NCBI GenBank assembly: GCA_021740905.1
Contig: JAIOYV010000014.1
Location: 1 to 64,000, forward strand
DNA length: 64,000 nucleotides
DNA from: Bacteroidales bacterium
GTDB lineage: Bacteria; Bacteroidota; Bacteroidia; Bacteroidales; M50B96
Direction: 5' to 3'
Positions 15,740 to 25,376 of the stretch are shown here, piece by piece. The notes under the pieces were generated by a model. That model saw only the letters and a list, made by a program, of their open reading frames with translations. It did not search any database and was not told the origin of the DNA. Every line of letters begins with the position of its first letter. The stretch's first letter is position 1. Made by a program: the position numbers and the translations under genes.

Positions 15740-15831
15740 GTTGTGAATTGCTTTCAACTGCGGAGCTCTCACGAACACCTTAAAAATAAAAATCTGTGAG
15801 TAAAATTAGATTATGCGATCTTTGACACAGC
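15740..15831 (+). repeat. Disrupted first CRISPR repeat
   Basis: The first 18 bases of the repeat (15740-15757) and its last 30 (15802-15831) are intact but separated by 44 bp not found elsewhere in the array. The two parts share AA at the break, as if by a 2-bp duplication. The extra segment has short complementary ends CTCAC and GTGAG. The total of 92 bp equals two repeat lengths. Confidence 0.85.
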
Positions 15832-17655
15832 TAAAAATCATCCAACCCATTTGAACCATCTGTTGTGAATTGCTTTCAAAATTAGATTATGCGATCTTTG
15901 ACACAGCTATTCCAACTTAATCCCAAGTAAGCATTTCGTTGTGAATTGCTTTCAAAATTAGATTATGCGATCTTTGACACAGCCACTTGTAAAGGGTTGG
16001 CTTGCCGTTGTTAGTTGTGAATTGCTTTCAAAATTAGATTATGCGATCTTTGACACAGCTTTTTTTGAGTTTTAAAAGTGATGGCCTCAGTTGTGAATTG
16101 CTTTCAAAATTAGATTATGCGATCTTTGACACAGCGTTTCTTTCGAAACAGATTACAATTGCCGTGTTGTGAATTGCTTTCAAAATTAGATTATGCGATC
16201 TTTGACACAGCATTACAACAGAGCCCCAATATTGTTTTAGCGTTGTGAATTGCTTTCAAAATTAGATTATGCGATCTTTGACACAGCGTTTAAGCATCTC
16301 CATGAAATGCCAGTTCTGTTGTGAATTGCTTTCAAAATTAGATTATGCGATCTTTGACACAGCATCCGGCTCTGCGTGGATTTCTTCAAACCTGTTGTGA
16401 ATTGCTTTCAAAATTAGATTATGCGATCTTTGACACAGCCATTTGTCACATCGTACACTTGCACGGCCTGTTGTGAATTGCTTTCAAAATTAGATTATGC
16501 GATCTTTGACACAGCGTGTTTCAGCTACTTTGCTTAATTGATCCCGTTGTGAATTGCTTTCAAAATTAGATTATGCGATCTTTGACACAGCTTTTATTCA
16601 CCCTTCCCATCGAAGTATTGAGTTGTGAATTGCTTTCAAAATTAGATTATGCGATCTTTGACACAGCAAAACCTGACAGCAATCAAAGCAACTTATGGTT
16701 GTGAATTGCTTTCAAAATTAGATTATGCGATCTTTGACACAGCTCTTTTATCTGGGACCTGAAAAGTTCTAAAGTTGTGAATTGCTTTCAAAATTAGATT
16801 ATGCGATCTTTGACACAGCCAGGGCTGGTAAATAATCAGAAAAAAGCTCGTTGTGAATTGCTTTCAAAATTAGATTATGCGATCTTTGACACAGCAGCCA
16901 CAAATACAACTCGCGGCTTTCTCCAGTTGTGAATTGCTTTCAAAATTAGATTATGCGATCTTTGACACAGCACCTACCGAAGCCGGTGCAGTGTTGCGAC
17001 GGTTGTGAATTGCTTTCAAAATTAGATTATGCGATCTTTGACACAGCCTTCAATCTTGGCAGGATTTGAGCGGACCAGTTGTGAATTGCTTTCAAAATTA
17101 GATTATGCGATCTTTGACACAGCTGTCCGCTCATAGCATCACATTTTCAGCGAGTTGTGAATTGCTTTCAAAATTAGATTATGCGATCTTTGACACAGCT
17201 GGGCAACAAGAAATGGCCCGTCTTTGATTGTTGTGAATTGCTTTCAAAATTAGATTATGCGATCTTTGACACAGCCCGTTTCGCGATGGGCATACACACA
17301 TGCTAGTTGTGAATTGCTTTCAAAATTAGATTATGCGATCTTTGACACAGCTGTCCGTATCGGTCGATGTAAGGTTGTCTAGTTGTGAATTGCTTTCAAA
17401 ATTAGATTATGCGATCTTTGACACAGCCAAATTAAAATCAGATAGATATGCAAGATTGTTGTGAATTGCTTTCAAAATTAGATTATGCGATCTTTGACAC
17501 AGCAAGATCACGAGGCATGGCATAGATCACTTTGTTGTGAATTGCTTTCAAAATTAGATTATGCGATCTTTGACACAGCAACCTTTGCCGTGTTGGCTGC
17601 AACTTCATTGTTGTGAATTGCTTTCAAAATTAGATTATGCGATCTTTGACACAGC
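15740..17655 (+). CRISPR. Type II-C CRISPR array, 25 repeats (first one broken), 24 spacers
   Basis: Twenty-four identical 46-bp repeats start at 15862 and recur every 76 bp to 17610, each beginning GTTGTGAATTGCTTTC and ending GATCTTTGACACAGC. All spacers are exactly 30 bp. A 25th repeat at the left end (15740-15831) is split by 44-46 extra bases. The tracrRNA anti-repeat at 25417-25434 is the exact complement of repeat positions 2-19. With the tracrRNA terminator this fixes crRNA transcription on the plus strand. Identical repeats and uniform spacers indicate a maintained, probably active array. It converges on the minus-strand cas operon, and a strong plus-strand terminator follows at 17721. 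Each repeat also contains a near-consensus promoter. Confidence 0.98.
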
Positions 17656-17720
17656 ACTACGCTTATAGTTTAATGACTGTCAAATATTTGCATTAAAAAC
17701 AGGATCGCAAAAATGAGAAG

Positions 17721-17757
17721 AAACCGTTCTTTGTTGCATACAAAGGACGGTTTTTTT
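17721..17757 (+). terminator. Intrinsic terminator after the CRISPR array
   Basis: Arms AAACCGTTCTTTG and CAAAGGACGGTTT (one G-T pair) around TTGCATA, followed by a T tract. The orientation fits transcripts leaving the array on the plus strand, 65 bp after the last repeat. Confidence 0.85.
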
Positions 17758-17882
17758 ATTTCTAGCAATCATTTGAAAGGCTGCCCCGATTATTACATGA
17801 AGATTGATAATCGTTGCTAAGCAATTGTGATCAAATCAAATAGCTGGATTTTCAAAAAACAGTAATCACAAACCTTATTTAT

Positions 17883-18698
17883 TTACCGAGAAACAAAACT
17901 ATCAAACTGGTCGAAAGCTGCTGCCTTTTCTAGGAGTTGGCCCCAAACAACAGGTGCTACTTGCGGTGCAACTATGGTATATTCGTCAGCTAAAACCCAG
18001 CCGGGTGGCAACATCGTGTTCAGGATATCATTTGTTATCATTATTGGATTTTCGTATCCGGTGTTTAGCATAATGAAATCGTATTTGCCCACGATAGTGC
18101 CTGCTTCATTGGTCAAAAGTTTCAATAACTTTTTGCCATCCTCATTGGCTACTTGCATAACACTTCCACTTGCAATAAATGGGAGGCCATATTGTACATT
18201 CATGACAATATCAAAAATCCTGGTTTTCAGTTCTTCTCCTTCAAACCTGTAAAATTCATCATAAAGGCGTTTGCCGAAATGGACTTCCCTTACTGGGCCT
18301 AAAATGGCTATTTGCTTACCCCCTTTTAATACTGCTTTTAATAAACTAGAGTCATTTTTTTCAAGTTTATTTATTTTTTTTGCAGGGTATAATTCTTGCC
18401 CAAATACAGATTTTCCATCTTCGTCTACTACTTTCCCTCGGGTAAAATCAATAATTGAACTTACAATAGTATTGGTCAACTGATAGTCGAACTCATTCGA
18501 CAAAACCGTGTTTCGCACTTCAATAAAACCTTCTTCAAAGGCAACTTCAACCCCTCGGGCCGATTTTCCATCGACCCAACAGTACATTGTCCCTTCATCT
18601 CTTTCAGTCAACTGAGCATTATCAATCTCAGCAATTCGTTGTTTGAACATTGAAATGTCGAGTGGGTGTTGAACAATAATTTTGTGTGCTACGCTCAT
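17883..18698 (-). CDS. Unrecognised protein, fourth gene of the cas operon
   Basis: A 271-residue soluble protein starting 18 bp after the cas2 stop codon on the same strand, so very probably co-transcribed with cas1-cas2. No signal peptide, membrane segment or nuclease motif is evident. It has one Cys (in MYCWVDGKS). The N-terminal 90 residues (CWVDGKSARGVEVAFEEG, IEVRNTVLSNEFDYQL) and the C-terminal third (FIMLNTGYENPIMI, LPPGWVLADEYTIVAPQVAP) look like two globular alpha/beta domains joined by a Lys-rich stretch. It is not Csn2 or Cas4: Cas4 needs a four-Cys cluster. Type II-C loci normally have only cas9, cas1 and cas2. It may be a new accessory factor or a passenger; no function is assigned. 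Confidence 0.75.
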   Translation of the reverse strand: MSVAHKIIVQHPLDISMFKQRIAEIDNAQLTERDEGTMYCWVDGKSARGVEVAFEEGFIEVRNTVLSNEFDYQLTNTIVSSIIDFTRGKVVDEDGKSVFGQELYPAKKINKLEKNDSSLLKAVLKGGKQIAILGPVREVHFGKRLYDEFYRFEGEELKTRIFDIVMNVQYGLPFIASGSVMQVANEDGKKLLKLLTNEAGTIVGKYDFIMLNTGYENPIMITNDILNTMLPPGWVLADEYTIVAPQVAPVVWGQLLEKAAAFDQFDSFVSR

Positions 18699-18716
18699 TT
18701 TCTTTTCTTTATTTAA

Positions 18717-19058
18717 TTAAAATAGTTCTAATTGTTGCGGGGTGTCCGGGCGTTTGCTTTCTTTTGGCCCACGGAAAAACTCCATCTGCCCAAACTGTTT
18801 GTCGGTGAGGGTGAAAATAATGACTTCGCCTTTGGGGGGCAAAACCGATTTCACCCTCCGTATGTGAACATCGGCATTTTCGCGGCTGTTGCAATGCCGT
18901 ACATAAATCGAAAATTGCATCATGGTAAAACCATCCTGCATCATGCCCTTCCTGAAACGGGTATAATCCTTCTTGTCCTTTTTAGTTTCAGTCGGCAAAT
19001 CGAAAAATACAAAGACCCACAAAATACGATATTGGTTTAGGCGATTATAAAATGTCAT
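18717..19058 (-). CDS. cas2: CRISPR-associated endonuclease Cas2
   Basis: Cas2 dimers hold two Cas1 dimers together in the spacer-integration complex. The 113-residue protein has the ferredoxin-like first strand VFVFFDLPTET with the conserved Asp, the FRKGMMQDGFTMMQFSIYVR block, and the C-terminal QLELF tail found in many type II-C Cas2 proteins. Its ATG overlaps the cas1 TGA stop (ATGA), so the two are translationally coupled. It is followed 18 bp later by an unknown gene. Confidence 0.95.
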   Translation of the reverse strand: MTFYNRLNQYRILWVFVFFDLPTETKKDKKDYTRFRKGMMQDGFTMMQFSIYVRHCNSRENADVHIRRVKSVLPPKGEVIIFTLTDKQFGQMEFFRGPKESKRPDTPQQLELF

Positions 19059-19960
19059 GTGTGCAATAAGTCAGGGTAAGCAATTTTCCGGGCACTGCCC
19101 TCGAAACATTGCGACAAGGAGGCACTGGTGCGGGTACAGGCCACCATCAAGGGGCTTTTTTCGTTGGCTATCAGCACATCGATCACAGGAACGGCCAATA
19201 TTTTCTGCTTCAGTTCTGTTGTCAGTTCTTCTATTTCGCCTGCCTCTTCCGACATTTCCAATACCAATTTATCGACCATGGGCCGATAAGGTTCCATTAT
19301 ATCGTCCGCCAGGCAATAGGGGTTGTATTTGTTTCTATGAAAAATACCGGATACCGGCAACAGCCCACTTGAAACCAACGAGCGGGCCATGATGGAGCGG
19401 AGCACGGCATAACCATAATTCAACAGATTATTGGGGGCATCGCCAAAACGATGGCGTTTAAGCCCGGGGGTGTCCTGAAACAAGGCATCCCAATAAAAAC
19501 GGGCCGCCCGGCCTTCCACATTGTCGGGGTCGCCGCTGTTTACCTGCTTTGCCAACTGGAAAAGCCTTTTTGCAGGTCCTCCAGCCCAGGCCAGCACTTC
19601 TGCCTGGTTCTGTATTTTAGCCGAAACGGTTTGCTGCCACAGGTTCTTTTTCAACGATGCACTAGCATTTAACTGGTGTTTCACCTTTTCGGTATAGGCA
19701 TGGTGGCTGTGCATGGGCAACATAAGGGCGTGGGGCAAATGCTTTTGGTCGCAATTCAGCACGGCTGCATTGTTTTCGAGCAAGGCTGTCAGCAAGCCCT
19801 GGGTAATGGTGATCTGGTAATGGTCGAGCACCACGATGCCAATATCCTCGATGGGCACCGACCGGCTTTCTTTATCCTCCCCGGGATAATCAATCAACAA
19901 TTGGTTTTGCTTCTTTTTCAAGTAGCAGGGATTTCCGAAATAAAGGGTACGTTTTATCAT
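19055..19960 (-). CDS. cas1: CRISPR-associated integrase Cas1 (type II)
   Basis: Cas1 catalyses spacer integration at the repeat. The 301-residue protein has the type II form: N-terminal beta domain starting MIKRTLYFGNPCYL, then the metal-binding site formed by Glu in NVEGRAARFYW, His in SGIFHRNKYNPY and the acidic CLADDIMEPYRP. It is complete and of standard length. It overlaps cas2 by 4 bp. Upstream, instead of lying directly after cas9 as is usual, it is separated from it by about 1.25 kb holding a RAYT gene and palindromic repeats. Confidence 0.96.
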   Translation of the reverse strand: MIKRTLYFGNPCYLKKKQNQLLIDYPGEDKESRSVPIEDIGIVVLDHYQITITQGLLTALLENNAAVLNCDQKHLPHALMLPMHSHHAYTEKVKHQLNASASLKKNLWQQTVSAKIQNQAEVLAWAGGPAKRLFQLAKQVNSGDPDNVEGRAARFYWDALFQDTPGLKRHRFGDAPNNLLNYGYAVLRSIMARSLVSSGLLPVSGIFHRNKYNPYCLADDIMEPYRPMVDKLVLEMSEEAGEIEELTTELKQKILAVPVIDVLIANEKSPLMVACTRTSASLSQCFEGSARKIAYPDLLHT

Positions 19961-20001
19961 AGTTGGTAGTTTTTTTTATATCGTCAGTGTCGTCTTCCAT
20001 A

Positions 20002-20035
20002 ACCGTCGGTGTCGCTCGGAGCAACGCCAACGGTA
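20002..20035. repeat. REP palindrome copy 1
   Basis: Imperfect palindrome with ends ACCGTCGGTGTCGCT and AGCAACGCCAACGGT. It lies between the RAYT gene and cas1. Confidence 0.8.
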
Positions 20036-20073
20036 GTTCCATTGCCAACGCTGGGGTATCTTTTGCGTTCGAT

Positions 20074-20108
20074 TACCGTCGGTGTCGCTTGAAGCGACGC
20101 CGACGGTA
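20074..20108. repeat. REP palindrome copy 2
   Basis: Arms TACCGTCGGTGTCGCT and AGCGACGCCGACGGTA with a 3-base loop and one mismatch. Same family as copy 1, just downstream of the RAYT stop codon. Confidence 0.85.
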
Positions 20109-20152
20109 GTGCCAACAGTCACCGACAGTACTTTTATCACTGCCGTATCAAT

Positions 20153-20782
20153 TCAAAATTCGACATATTCATTTGCCACCAGTTTGTTGATTAGTTTGCC
20201 GTCGCGCAACCCAGCATAATCCATTGCCGATGAAAACTCCCAATCGGTAACTTTCTTGACCAAACCCGCAACCATTGGGTTGTCATGTATGTAATCGAAA
20301 CATATTTGCGGGTATTGAAATTCGGGGTGTTCGATATGGATTTGTGTACCTGACTTTGTGTTGTAAAAAGATGGGGTTATACAGTCCTGGCAAGTAAGGC
20401 ACTCGGCTTTGGTTTTTTCCCTGAATAGTTTTCCTGATCTATTTTCTTGTTTGTTTATAGCATTCGTGTAAGAACGAAGCATGATTCCAATGGAATCGTT
20501 TAATGATCTCTGCCGGCAATTACCGTCGGTGTCGTTTGAAGCCAGTTGTTTGCGACTACCGTCAGCGTCGCTCGAAGCGACACCGACGGTTGTGTCCCTA
20601 ACTAAAACCATAAAATGAAAATGATTCGGCATCAAACACCAGGCAATTATGTCTGTGTAAGGCAGAATATGTATCCGAACCTTCCGCAAAAAGAAAAGAT
20701 AGTTTTCGTGGTTGAAGAATAACTTTTGCCGATTATTTCCCTGGTTGTAAATGTGAAACAAATGCCCTCTCTCAAATTCCAT
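20153..20782 (-). CDS. RAYT (REP-associated Y1 transposase, IS200-like) inside the cas operon
   Basis: A 209-residue HUH/Y1 protein. The HUH motif is PNHFHFMV. The catalytic Tyr is in IGIMLRSYTNAINK, followed by the usual RSGKLFREKTK and the C-terminal FDYIHDNPMVAGLV and WEFSSAMDYAG. RAYTs are domesticated relatives of IS200/IS605 transposases that act on flanking REP palindromes, and such palindromes surround this gene. The residues VGVASSDADGSRKQLASNDT between the HUH motif and the Tyr helix are encoded by REP sequence (about 20515-20592) inserted in frame. The gene sits on the same strand between cas9 and cas1, so the cas transcript must cross it or cas1 needs its own promoter. Confidence 0.85.
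   Translation of the reverse strand: MEFERGHLFHIYNQGNNRQKLFFNHENYLFFLRKVRIHILPYTDIIAWCLMPNHFHFMVLVRDTTVGVASSDADGSRKQLASNDTDGNCRQRSLNDSIGIMLRSYTNAINKQENRSGKLFREKTKAECLTCQDCITPSFYNTKSGTQIHIEHPEFQYPQICFDYIHDNPMVAGLVKKVTDWEFSSAMDYAGLRDGKLINKLVANEYVEF
20521..20556. repeat. Degenerate REP copy 3, inside the RAYT gene
   Basis: TACCGTCGGTGTCGTTTGAA with a decayed right arm. It is adjacent to copy 4 and within the coding sequence. Confidence 0.65.
20557..20590. repeat. REP palindrome copy 4, inside the RAYT gene
   Basis: TACCGTCAGCGTCGCT and AGCGACACCGACGGT arms. Read in frame on the minus strand it encodes part of the extra loop of the RAYT protein. Confidence 0.8.
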
Positions 20783-20824: not shown

Positions 20825-20859
20825 TACCGTCGGTGTCGCTTTGAGCGACACCGACGGTA
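20825..20859. repeat. REP palindrome copy 5 (perfect arms)
   Basis: Perfect 16-bp arms TACCGTCGGTGTCGCT / AGCGACACCGACGGTA around TTG. Located 43 bp upstream of the RAYT start codon, the typical REP position. A half-copy GCCAACGGTA follows. Confidence 0.88.
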
Positions 20860-20925
20860 ATATCCCCGCCAACGGTAGTCTTCCAAACATTTCTTTGTCT
20901 ATCAATTTCCGCTTCCAAAATGCAA

Positions 20926-21209: not shown

Positions 21210-24200
21210 CTAATACTCCCCAACCTTTACGATTCTTCCCAAATGATTTATCCTAACTTTGACAAGTTTCTCTAAAGTTGCCGTTTTCTGAATTTGTTTG
21301 TAGGAAACACCTTTTAAAACTTTATTATTTTCCACATTTGTTTCTAAATGATGACGAAAAACATATTCTCTAATGAAGGAATTTCCATATTTTAACTTTG
21401 AAAACTTTTGGACCCGATATAAATTGGGACTTATTAGTTTTGAATTATTAATATCCTGCAAGTCAATCTCTAAAGGATCAAAATTATGAGAAGGAAAAAC
21501 GAAATATTCATTTTGTTTCATAGAAAATAAAAACTTCCAATTTCGATTCTCATTTTTTACTTTATCAATAATTGGCAGACTTTGTCTTACTCTTTCTACT
21601 GCTTCATAAAATGAAACGACTTCATCCTCAATATTTCCATTTTCATCTTTATATATTGCCACATGATGATTATTTCCTGTACTTACAAAATCGACTGGCA
21701 GAGGATTCCCCTCAAAGTCTAAAACCCGTTCCCCTTTATTGTTTTTTTTATAGTGAAGTGGCTCAGCGTTACTGACTCCTGTAATAGTGACCCTTTTAAT
21801 ACTTATCCCTTTTTCTTTATTTAACCAAATCGGGTTTTCGTCGAGATTCGAAAATGCTTCCTTTGTATTATTACCAAATTCGTTAAGCCGAGCTTTCAAA
21901 ATCTTTTTAATTCCATTATCAATTATCTTGTCAATTTTCAAATCGGGTGTTATGTCCTTACGTATTGTATAACAGTCCTCCATGTATTGAACTTCAACTC
22001 TTTCGGGCAATTCAATGGTTTTGTCCTGGTCAATAAAAATAGGGTTTTTGGTGGGTGAGTTTTTCCCTCCAAAAGCCTTCTTTGGGTTTCCTTCATTTTG
22101 AATCAGTCTTGAAAGCAAAGCTTCACGGTACACTTTTTTCACAACATGATTGATTTTTTCTAAATCGAACTTTGTCCCCACTTTTTCATCTGTAATTACT
22201 GGCTGTTTTATTTTGCCATAAACAGTTTCTTTGTGCAACTGTCCACGGGGAGTCAGCTCAATCCTTTCTTTGAAGTTTTCTTTTCCGGCCACCTTTATCT
22301 TATTCTTGTTTCGGGTCACTACTTTGTTTTTGGCTTTGAAAGAAATCAAAATGGATTCGATATGCTTTTTGGCCTCAGCTCTAAATTCGGTTAATGGAAT
22401 CGGTGGCTTAAACAGTAGTTTTCCATTTTCATCTCTGTACAAATATTTTTGTTCGATGCCATAAACCGTATGATACTTTTTGTGGGACTCATCTTTCCGT
22501 GCACTCATGTTATTTAGATATTGCACATGGCTGTACGAAGTAAATGCAACCGTCAAAGCGTCCATTGCATGATGCCTGTGATCATTCCGTTTGGTCCAAT
22601 CTTTAATTTTAGGAATATCTTTTCCATCCTTGCTTTTCTCATAATAAGTAAGTCCCAACGCATTGTATTTATCCCAGTTAAGTTCTTGCATAACATTTAT
22701 CAATTGCCAATCTTCGCGTAAGCGGTCGGTAATACTTCCTGTTGTTGTATTTACAACCCTGACTACCTCAAGCAACATTTGCTTTGCCTTTTTGGCTATG
22801 TACTGGCTATTTCGCAAATCACGCTCAATAAATCCGTCAGGCAAATCCGTACCCTTCATCAACAGCTTATTGTATTTCGCTTTACTAATAATACCTTTCC
22901 CTTTATCGAACAACTTCTCTATATTGTTGACATAGCGTTGGTACTCTTTTGTACCTTCTCCATACTTTTCGACAATCGCATCAATACCTGTTTTATTGCT
23001 TTTTTCTCGGCTGTTAAAATCGCGTGTAGCGAGAGTTTTATTTGAGAATGAATCATCAAACAAAGTGGCTTGTGGAATAATATGCTCTATGTCGAATTCT
23101 TTTGTAAATAATTTCTCTAAAGGAATGTATGTGTTTGTATAAAGGGTTTTATATCCAAGTGGGGCAAGCTCCTCATATAGTTTGTACTTAATAATATCAT
23201 TTTTGGAAATCCTGACACCATTATTAAAAGGATGTATATCTTTTAATATGTTCCTTATCCTCTCGTGGTTTAGGTTTGCTTTGTTTATACCTTTTGTCAT
23301 TTCCTCTCGCTCGTTTGCGCTTTTTTTCAACTCTCTTGCAAGCTCAACCCTTATCTCATCAGGTTTCCCCAGGCTTTCGTCGGCGATTATTGCATTAACA
23401 ACATTCACTAATTGATTCAGTATCTTTTCTACAATAGGATTCCGCAAAGAGTTTTTGGGCAATAGGTCCAATCTGTCTTTCAATTCCCTATTCTCATTTT
23501 CCAGTTTGGTAAACGACGATGAATGATTGTACCCAGCCAATTCACAAGCACCTTCACTTTGGCTATCAGATTCTTTTCTTGCATAAGGATGGCCAGCTTT
23601 CATGTATGGTAATATTTTCCGTATTGCACGGGAACTCAGGCTTCCATAGTCTGTTTGAAATTCTACTTTGGCAATTATCTTGGCATATTCCTTTGAAAAC
23701 CCAAAATCGGATTTAAGTTTTGCGATTAGACTTTCATCACCTGACCTCGAATTATCCCCTTCGTATGAGTAAAGCAAATGCCATAATTGCATAATAGCTT
23801 GTTTGTCGAATAGGTTGCCATCAAGCTCGCAATTAAAAGACAAGATATCTGTGGTGATCCCAATTTCAAGGAATTTTGTACTCACAGGATCGTTGATATC
23901 AGCTGCCGCCATATTTGCAAAATCATACTTTTCTCCTTCCAATTCTAATATCTGTTGATAAGCCTTATACAATGAGGCATTTGTCCTATTCCCTTCAATG
24001 TTTTTGAAATTGAGTTGAAAATCTTTCGGGTTTTCAAATAATATATCCAATATCTGAAGGTTGCTTAAGCTATCGTTTATATTTAACTCATTAAAAAGCT
24101 GTTCCTTCTCCTCTTGGGTTAAACAGAATTTTTCCTTAGTAAGGACATTCCTGTATTCGAGATTATGTAAAATCTGCCATATTTTGAATTCTTGAAATAG

Positions 24201-25376
24201 GGGAGATGATTTTGGGATTGTCTTATGGTGTTTTTCAAATTCACAATGTGCTATCAGGTGCTTTTGCGATTTTAGCCTTCGTTGATAGAAAATAATAATA
24301 TCACGAATTTCTTTCTTCAACTCAGTGGTCAATTCTGGATGGTGCTTTTGTTGGATTTCCCAGATGGTCTCAAACTCATCCAGATAGTCCTGTCGATAAA
24401 AAACCTGGTTTCTTAACCTGGCATGTGGGTTCTCTTCAAGTTGGTTAAATTGATATTCTCCAACTGTTTGTTTTGTAAAGTAAAGTTCTTTGCTGCGGTC
24501 GCTAATGGCTCCCAAATAACCGGATGATTGATTCTTTTGGTTGTTAATTTCTTGAAGTACAATTGCCAGTAATTCTAAATCTATCTTCTCTGATAAAGCT
24601 GCAACTCTCAATCGGTATTTTTCAATGCGTTGTTCATTTATTTTACCGTTTAACTTAATGCCAACAATATTAAATGGGTCTTTACAAATAGCCCAGGTCT
24701 GGGTTTTATTTTTATCTAATAAGTCATCTTTAAGTTTTTTACTTAAAATTTCGAGATAGTATTTCTTTTGAGTTCCCCAAACTTTGTCAAACTCATTTTG
24801 GAGGTCGGAACGATAAAAATCAGGTACATGTTTCTTGCCTGATTTTAACAACTCGAATACATATTGTCCTGGGGTAATGTCCTTATCATACAATATCTTT
24901 GCTACATCCATCCCTTCAATCGCAGTTCCCTCATCTTCCGATTTTGCTTTCCTACTACTTTTGTATCCCCTCTTTTTATTAATCATTAGAAGGACTTTGG
25001 CAAATTCTTCTTTCGATATTTTATCCCTTGCCGCATTTGCTCTTAGCCTGTGAGTAGTGAAAGTGGATCCTTTTCCTTCTTCAGCCAAGACACATCCATC
25101 CTTGATAAAACCTGATGATTTTAGGATTTCTACCAAGGCATCCCGCCTTTGTTGATATCGGTCAAGGTTTCGTCTTGCTCCCCGCTTTAAAGTTCTATCA
25201 GCATTTACAGATGTTGCCTTTCCTTTCAGGAAATCGCCTTCCTCATCAGTTGTGAGCGGAATTACACGAACCCCTAATTTAATAATCTCCGACTTCTCTG
25301 TATCGTTCTCTGCTTCTTTAACAAAGCCCCAACCAATACTTGTGGTCCCCAAATCCAGTCCTAATATTTTTTTCAT
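21210..25376 (-). CDS. cas9: CRISPR-associated endonuclease Cas9 (type II-C, large form)
   Basis: RNA-guided DNA nuclease, 1388 residues. RuvC-I is at the N-terminus (KKILGLDLGTTSIGWGF, Asp 8). RuvC-II is near residue 675 (DEIRVELAREL). The HNH domain is near residue 765 (FDIEHIIPQATLFDDSFSNK). RuvC-III is near residue 935 (DHRHHAMDALTVAF). All catalytic residues are present, so the protein should be active. The length is at the large end for type II-C but usual for Bacteroidota members. The tracrRNA is divergent just upstream and the gene heads the minus-strand operon towards cas1-cas2. Its probable promoter overlaps the anti-repeat. The PAM cannot be deduced here. Confidence 0.98.
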   Translation of the reverse strand: MKKILGLDLGTTSIGWGFVKEAENDTEKSEIIKLGVRVIPLTTDEEGDFLKGKATSVNADRTLKRGARRNLDRYQQRRDALVEILKSSGFIKDGCVLAEEGKGSTFTTHRLRANAARDKISKEEFAKVLLMINKKRGYKSSRKAKSEDEGTAIEGMDVAKILYDKDITPGQYVFELLKSGKKHVPDFYRSDLQNEFDKVWGTQKKYYLEILSKKLKDDLLDKNKTQTWAICKDPFNIVGIKLNGKINEQRIEKYRLRVAALSEKIDLELLAIVLQEINNQKNQSSGYLGAISDRSKELYFTKQTVGEYQFNQLEENPHARLRNQVFYRQDYLDEFETIWEIQQKHHPELTTELKKEIRDIIIFYQRRLKSQKHLIAHCEFEKHHKTIPKSSPLFQEFKIWQILHNLEYRNVLTKEKFCLTQEEKEQLFNELNINDSLSNLQILDILFENPKDFQLNFKNIEGNRTNASLYKAYQQILELEGEKYDFANMAAADINDPVSTKFLEIGITTDILSFNCELDGNLFDKQAIMQLWHLLYSYEGDNSRSGDESLIAKLKSDFGFSKEYAKIIAKVEFQTDYGSLSSRAIRKILPYMKAGHPYARKESDSQSEGACELAGYNHSSSFTKLENENRELKDRLDLLPKNSLRNPIVEKILNQLVNVVNAIIADESLGKPDEIRVELARELKKSANEREEMTKGINKANLNHERIRNILKDIHPFNNGVRISKNDIIKYKLYEELAPLGYKTLYTNTYIPLEKLFTKEFDIEHIIPQATLFDDSFSNKTLATRDFNSREKSNKTGIDAIVEKYGEGTKEYQRYVNNIEKLFDKGKGIISKAKYNKLLMKGTDLPDGFIERDLRNSQYIAKKAKQMLLEVVRVVNTTTGSITDRLREDWQLINVMQELNWDKYNALGLTYYEKSKDGKDIPKIKDWTKRNDHRHHAMDALTVAFTSYSHVQYLNNMSARKDESHKKYHTVYGIEQKYLYRDENGKLLFKPPIPLTEFRAEAKKHIESILISFKAKNKVVTRNKNKIKVAGKENFKERIELTPRGQLHKETVYGKIKQPVITDEKVGTKFDLEKINHVVKKVYREALLSRLIQNEGNPKKAFGGKNSPTKNPIFIDQDKTIELPERVEVQYMEDCYTIRKDITPDLKIDKIIDNGIKKILKARLNEFGNNTKEAFSNLDENPIWLNKEKGISIKRVTITGVSNAEPLHYKKNNKGERVLDFEGNPLPVDFVSTGNNHHVAIYKDENGNIEDEVVSFYEAVERVRQSLPIIDKVKNENRNWKFLFSMKQNEYFVFPSHNFDPLEIDLQDINNSKLISPNLYRVQKFSKLKYGNSFIREYVFRHHLETNVENNKVLKGVSYKQIQKTATLEKLVKVRINHLGRIVKVGEY

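Follow-up and report, generated by a model that had tools for sequence, protein, structure and literature searches.

Does the gene found between cas2 and the terminator of the CRISPR array in a type II-C CRISPR-Cas locus belong to the CRISPR-Cas system, or is it a passenger? The question is raised by a 64,000-nucleotide stretch of a Bacteroidales contig (hereafter, the window), whose first-pass annotation had described the gene as unrecognised and had allowed for either a new factor in adaptation or regulation or a passenger. We propose, with a probability of about 0.8, that it is a passenger, a DUF4299-like accessory gene in an otherwise ordinary type II-C locus, because a gene at this place is missing from almost every comparable locus and the known homologues lie elsewhere.

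The open reading frame is intact, starts with ATG, encodes 271 residues and begins 18 bp after the cas2 stop (18717) on the same strand. These features, like the convergent terminator-like hairpin (17717-17757) beyond its end, were as first described, and the neighbours previously named as cas9, cas1 and cas2 of type II-C each matched the expected profile (TIGR01865, TIGR03639 and TIGR01573, respectively). When the 954-bp gap was shuffled 2000 times by single bases, the longest ATG-initiated frame had 154 codons, compared with the 271 observed. The closest homologue is 41% identical over 268 aligned codons, and the two genes differ by 0.474, 0.284 and 0.631 at codon positions 1, 2 and 3, the pattern expected of coding sequence. 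The frame at 17883-18698 is a real coding gene, beyond what chance would produce. Its product is probably soluble, since long hydrophobic stretches are absent (the Kyte-Doolittle mean over 19 residues peaks at 1.01), and probably cytosolic. Cas4 proteins are marked by a cluster of four cysteines; this protein has a single cysteine, at position 40. The earlier statement that it is not Cas4 stands. At E values up to 1 it matched no cas model of Pfam, NCBIfam or PADLOC, which presumably include Csn2 models; a Cas4 match would have pointed to a II-B-like locus and a Csn2 match to II-A.

Table 1 Features of the type II-C locus in the window
Feature	Coordinates	Strand	Basis
CRISPR array, 24 full 46-bp repeats, 76-bp spacing	15862..17655 (end approximate)	+	repeat pattern; direction inferred from terminator hairpin
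Terminator-like hairpin, 18-bp stem, convergent to cas operon	17717..17757	+	fold -22.7 kcal/mol, 3' arm ends in T run
Stretch without counterpart, by length, in most relatives' cas2-array gaps	17763..18716		gap-length comparison
DUF4299-like gene of 271 aa, by position the last in the cas operon	17883..18698	-	ORF; DUF4299 E 1.3e-5, 25.4 bits; homologues
cas2	18717..19058	-	TIGR01573 5.8e-20; Cas2_II 4.3e-47
cas1, type II	19055..19960	-	TIGR03639 9.4e-87
REP-associated tyrosine transposase-like gene, between cas9 and cas1	20153..20782	-	NF047646 9.6e-11, 41.8 bits, under its cut-off of 80
cas9	21210..25376	-	TIGR01865 1.4e-149

Several further features of the locus are recorded here for completeness. 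The cas operon contains another extra gene, the transposase-like one (20153-20782), and REP-like inverted repeats lie around it at 19998-20115, 20519-20594 and 20825-20861. One repeat, at the end of the array away from the cas genes, is seemingly split: about 45 bp separate an initial part (15740-15757) from a final part (about 15803-15832). The hairpin beyond the array was absent from the list given by a simple terminator scan. A tracrRNA (anti-repeat plus terminator) considered at 17657-17766 was rejected, because 130 of 500 single-base shuffles reached the -19.0 kcal/mol of its pairing with the repeat. The best anti-repeat-like duplex of the scan, at -33.1 kcal/mol and without a shuffle control of its own, is formed by the 60 bases from 25377 on the plus strand, just before cas9, and these bases are a tracrRNA candidate.

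We compared the DNA downstream of cas2 among related genomes. A cas2 gene was found in 67 of 198 genomes, giving 70 rows, of which 63, the window's own among them, were examined downstream and seven partial or weak rows were left out. A CRISPR array was visible behind cas2 in 51 of the 63 loci, and 48 of these had no open reading frame of at least 60 residues between cas2 and the array, with gaps of 55-296 bp (median 123.5 bp) versus 1060 bp in the window. The excess corresponds to about 120 bp after the terminator, the DUF4299-like gene and the 18-bp spacer. By parsimony, the window locus would have gained roughly 0.9 kb, with the gene, into its cas2-array gap rather than 48 loci having lost it. 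The 12 loci lacking an array comprise nine that end within 600 bp and three (L048, L057 and L069) that run on for 2.7-3.0 kb with open reading frames behind cas2 and no array in that distance; these three stand outside the 51-locus gap count. In most of the 15 locus files read by eye, the cas2 stop is closely preceded by a terminator-like hairpin.

Besides the window, only two array-bearing loci have genes in the gap. One of them (L075, from genome G067) has a gap of 1955 bp with two ParE_toxin matches and small partners, one of them ParD-like (L075:1038-2288), and on these matches it is read as a toxin-antitoxin insertion; we found no literature on type II-C loci with toxin-antitoxin genes downstream of cas2. 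The other (L022, the same place as L083, from genome G029) has a gap of 829 bp with a pair of genes encoding 77 and 129 residues (L083:1328-1950), which matched no Pfam, NCBIfam or PADLOC model and which we take to resemble HicAB. The genes in these two gaps indicate that other genes occasionally enter the cas2-array gap. A tblastn search of the 70 cas2 locus files with the window protein matched only the window's own file (L017). Recurrence next to cas2, which the first-pass annotation had proposed to tabulate, came to 1 of 51 array-bearing loci, the window itself. Judged from these sequences, the DUF4299-like gene is not a general or conserved component of type II-C loci.

The gene is not an orphan, although its family assignment falls short of a formal one. 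The window protein matched DUF4299 (PF14132), the one family that it approached, over positions 56-222 of the 301 in the model, and two homologues matched it independently: that of G759, whose gene is cut by a contig end (E 1.6e-6, 28.4 bits, model positions 52-172), and that of G967 (E 6.2e-7, 29.8 bits, model positions 51-300, nearly the whole model). All three scores (25.4, 28.4 and 29.8 bits) are below the curated cut-off of 31 bits, and the model did not match the proteins of L002, L003/L005 and L006 (L005 and L006 being partial translations) or the two pieces of the G288 member. We therefore use the name DUF4299-like, not DUF4299, for what these profile matches indicate is a distant relative of that family. 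Family alignments contain the conserved stretches KSxRGVEV, GPxRxxHFGKR and LPxxWxLxDEYTIVAP, the first of which reads KSLRELEV in the G967 protein. Searches with the window protein gave no match in NCBIfam, a best E of 0.12 in PHROGs and nothing better than E 0.14 with phmmer against the PDB, and no PADLOC model matched the window protein or the two homologues that were scanned.

Structure prediction, which the earlier annotation had put forward alongside profile searches, gave weak models. AlphaFold2 models from three-row alignments had a pLDDT of 49.2 with the window protein first and 59.9 with the Flavobacteriia homologue first, and Foldseek searches of the models against the PDB and BFVD returned nothing at E <= 0.001. 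The best VIA-align hits of the homologue model (pLDDT 59.9) were a SAD kinase (4yom, Z 8.3, 82 residues, 2.7 A) and RnlA (6y2s, Z 8.0, 81 residues, 2.3 A), with rows that cover model residues 1-90; a best Z of 7 to 8 is typical background for this tool. At this model quality, the matches to an RnlA/LsoA-like or KA1-like N-terminal fold are about at background.

Eight family members were found, all in Bacteroidota, and only the window's lies beside cas genes. The family is rare and its distribution patchy: it occurs, with the window's own genome counted each time, in 3 of 198 relatives (single-protein search), 6 of 393 genomes of the order (three-row profile) and 3 of 395 genomes of the phylum (four-row profile). 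Rows from G700 (order) and G587 (phylum) were dismissed, with scores of 19.5 and 20.1 bits and two in-frame stops each. The DUF4299 model itself matched 1 of 395 genomes of the phylum, the window's own, and none of 14 control genomes. A profile search in the order of G288 recovered that genome alone (1 of 188), and family-level searches around G117 (1 of 6), G131 (1 of 6), G759 (2 of 20) and G631 (1 of 3) recovered the known genome each time and, in addition, G967. No relative was found in a wider search of genome contigs with the window protein alone, in searches of viral contigs, in a phage search with the window protein, or in plasmid searches with the window protein, the L006 protein and the window DNA; a plasmid search with the L002 protein gave one weak match (E 0.3), annotated as a hydantoinase.

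The settings of the other seven members differ from one another and from that of the window; neighbours were named by eye from translations except for RhuM and hsdR, which were matched by profiles. In G117 the gene is near miaA and is followed after 35 bp by a RhuM gene, a match to the PADLOC candidate PDC-S05 at 3e-71; the cas2 of this genome, with a 107-bp gap of ordinary size, lies on the same contig at a distance of 82 kb. The member of a Marinifilum MAG (G131 and L005, which length and translations show to be probably one contig) stands among glycosyltransferase-like and DedA-like genes. That of a Flavobacteriia MAG (L006) follows, at 677 bp, the hsdR gene of a type I restriction system, with one open reading frame between and gaps of 7 and 13 bp; it is the middle one of three tightly spaced genes behind hsdR (L006:1535-4064), flanked by a 218-residue gene with only a weak DUF1031 match and a 334-residue gene of no clear family. 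The G759 and G967 members share one site beside an inositol-monophosphatase-like gene, which is occupied in 2 of 11 searched genomes of that genus. The G288 member is frameshifted and lies between dprA-like and NhaD-like genes, and the G631 member is a fragment on a 3.2-kb contig. In the 3-20 kb of DNA fetched around each of the seven, there was no repeat array and no tblastn match to the window Cas1, Cas2 or Cas9 at E 0.01, while the positive control, the window locus itself (L017), gave both cas matches and the array; in G759 and G631, whose loci are cut by contig ends, this absence holds for the sequenced part. Homologues are accordingly found mostly away from cas genes (7 of 8), the outcome that the first-pass annotation had named as speaking against a new factor. 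Scattered occurrence and a frameshifted copy in G288 are consistent with an accessory gene.

Expression of the gene may depend on the operon in front of it. The Bacteroidetes promoter consensus TAnnTTTG, as given in PMC10309648, is absent from the 350 bp before the DUF4299-like gene and occurs once 140 bp before cas9. This placement of the motif points faintly to transcription with the cas genes by read-through. A sigma-70 scan of 17600-19000 gave four promoter-like sites with 3.6 expected by chance, which is uninformative. A terminator-like site inside cas2 on the minus strand (18846-18822) would work against such read-through, though sites of this kind occur at chance number (two found, 1.4 expected). 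The GC3 of the gene is 0.346, compared with 0.343 in cas9, 0.596 in cas1 and a mean of 0.460 (sd 0.097) over 31 window ORFs, and base composition does not mark the gene as foreign.

The evidence must be weighed against three other accounts of the gene. That it is a genuine, lineage-specific fourth cas gene with a role in adaptation or regulation is what its intact frame, strand and 18-bp spacing would lead one to expect, but we consider this very improbable given its absence from the other cas2 loci in both the tblastn search and the gap survey, the distance of the other seven members from cas genes and the lack of any cas model match. Of the pair of options first offered, the passenger is supported (one of eight members at a cas locus; 48 of 51 gaps free of an open reading frame of at least 60 residues) and the adaptation factor is not. 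It is possible, but in our view unlikely, that the gene encodes an immunity or adaptor protein belonging to an interbacterial secretion system and persists here as an orphan. The hint comes from Campylobacter jejuni, in which the DUF4299 protein CJ488_0996 tracks the type VI secretion system (T6SS): according to PMC8285248, it is present in 127 of 512 genomes, 122 of them T6SS-positive, and the authors speculate that it is an adaptor or chaperone. In our searches of the literature on DUF4299/PF14132, this link is the only published functional hint we found. The patchy distribution and the decay of the G288 gene would also suit an orphan immunity gene. Against this, TssC (PF17541), the one T6SS model used, was present in one of the seven host genomes searched (G631) and not in the window's own genome, which is 97% complete; the host of L006 was outside that search.

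In the third account, DUF4299-like proteins are carried at the ends of defence operons, where they would act against phage themselves or would guard or modulate the neighbouring system. Defence operons (cas, hsdR and RhuM/PDC-S05) contain or adjoin three of the eight members, but the other five have no defence neighbours recognised by eye, and the PADLOC models were silent on the window protein and two homologues; the sample is small, and we judge the account improbable. Its fuller version, in which these proteins are a mobile, unrecognised anti-phage accessory attached to the ends of CRISPR, type I restriction and RhuM/PDC-S05 operons and expressed with them, seems slightly less probable again. 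If it were true, a barely studied family would gain its first function. The passenger reading has difficulties of its own. An intact frame on the cas strand, close behind cas2, is what one would see in a functional cas-linked gene; the GC3 of the gene carries no foreign mark; the same three defence settings count against the passenger reading, as does the site in cas2 that would oppose read-through; and the cut contigs of G759 and G631 and the array-less loci with open reading frames behind cas2 soften the survey on which it draws.

We nevertheless favour the passenger reading, under which the product would take no part in spacer acquisition or interference. By its likeness to sporadic, easily lost accessory genes, it may bind a partner protein, in an immunity- or adaptor-like manner, rather than act as an enzyme. 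One candidate fourth cas gene can thereby be taken off the type II-C list, and the case illustrates that spacing and strand alone are weak evidence for membership of a cas operon, the cas2-array gap holding unrelated genes in a few genomes.

Comparison with known systems places the gene as follows. With DUF4299 it shares the independent matches of three family members to PF14132 over an overlapping region of the model, and it differs in that the family scores stay under 31 bits and several members have no match. CJ488_0996 of the C. jejuni T6SS island was assigned to DUF4299 by its authors and is likened to the window protein by family description only; as described in PMC8285248, it differs in length (116 residues, compared with 271 here) and in its T6SS context. 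The locus itself agrees with the Bacteroidota type II-C arrangement in its cas9, cas1 and cas2 genes and its convergent array with a terminator-like hairpin, and departs from it in the extra gene after cas2 and the transposase-like gene between cas9 and cas1.
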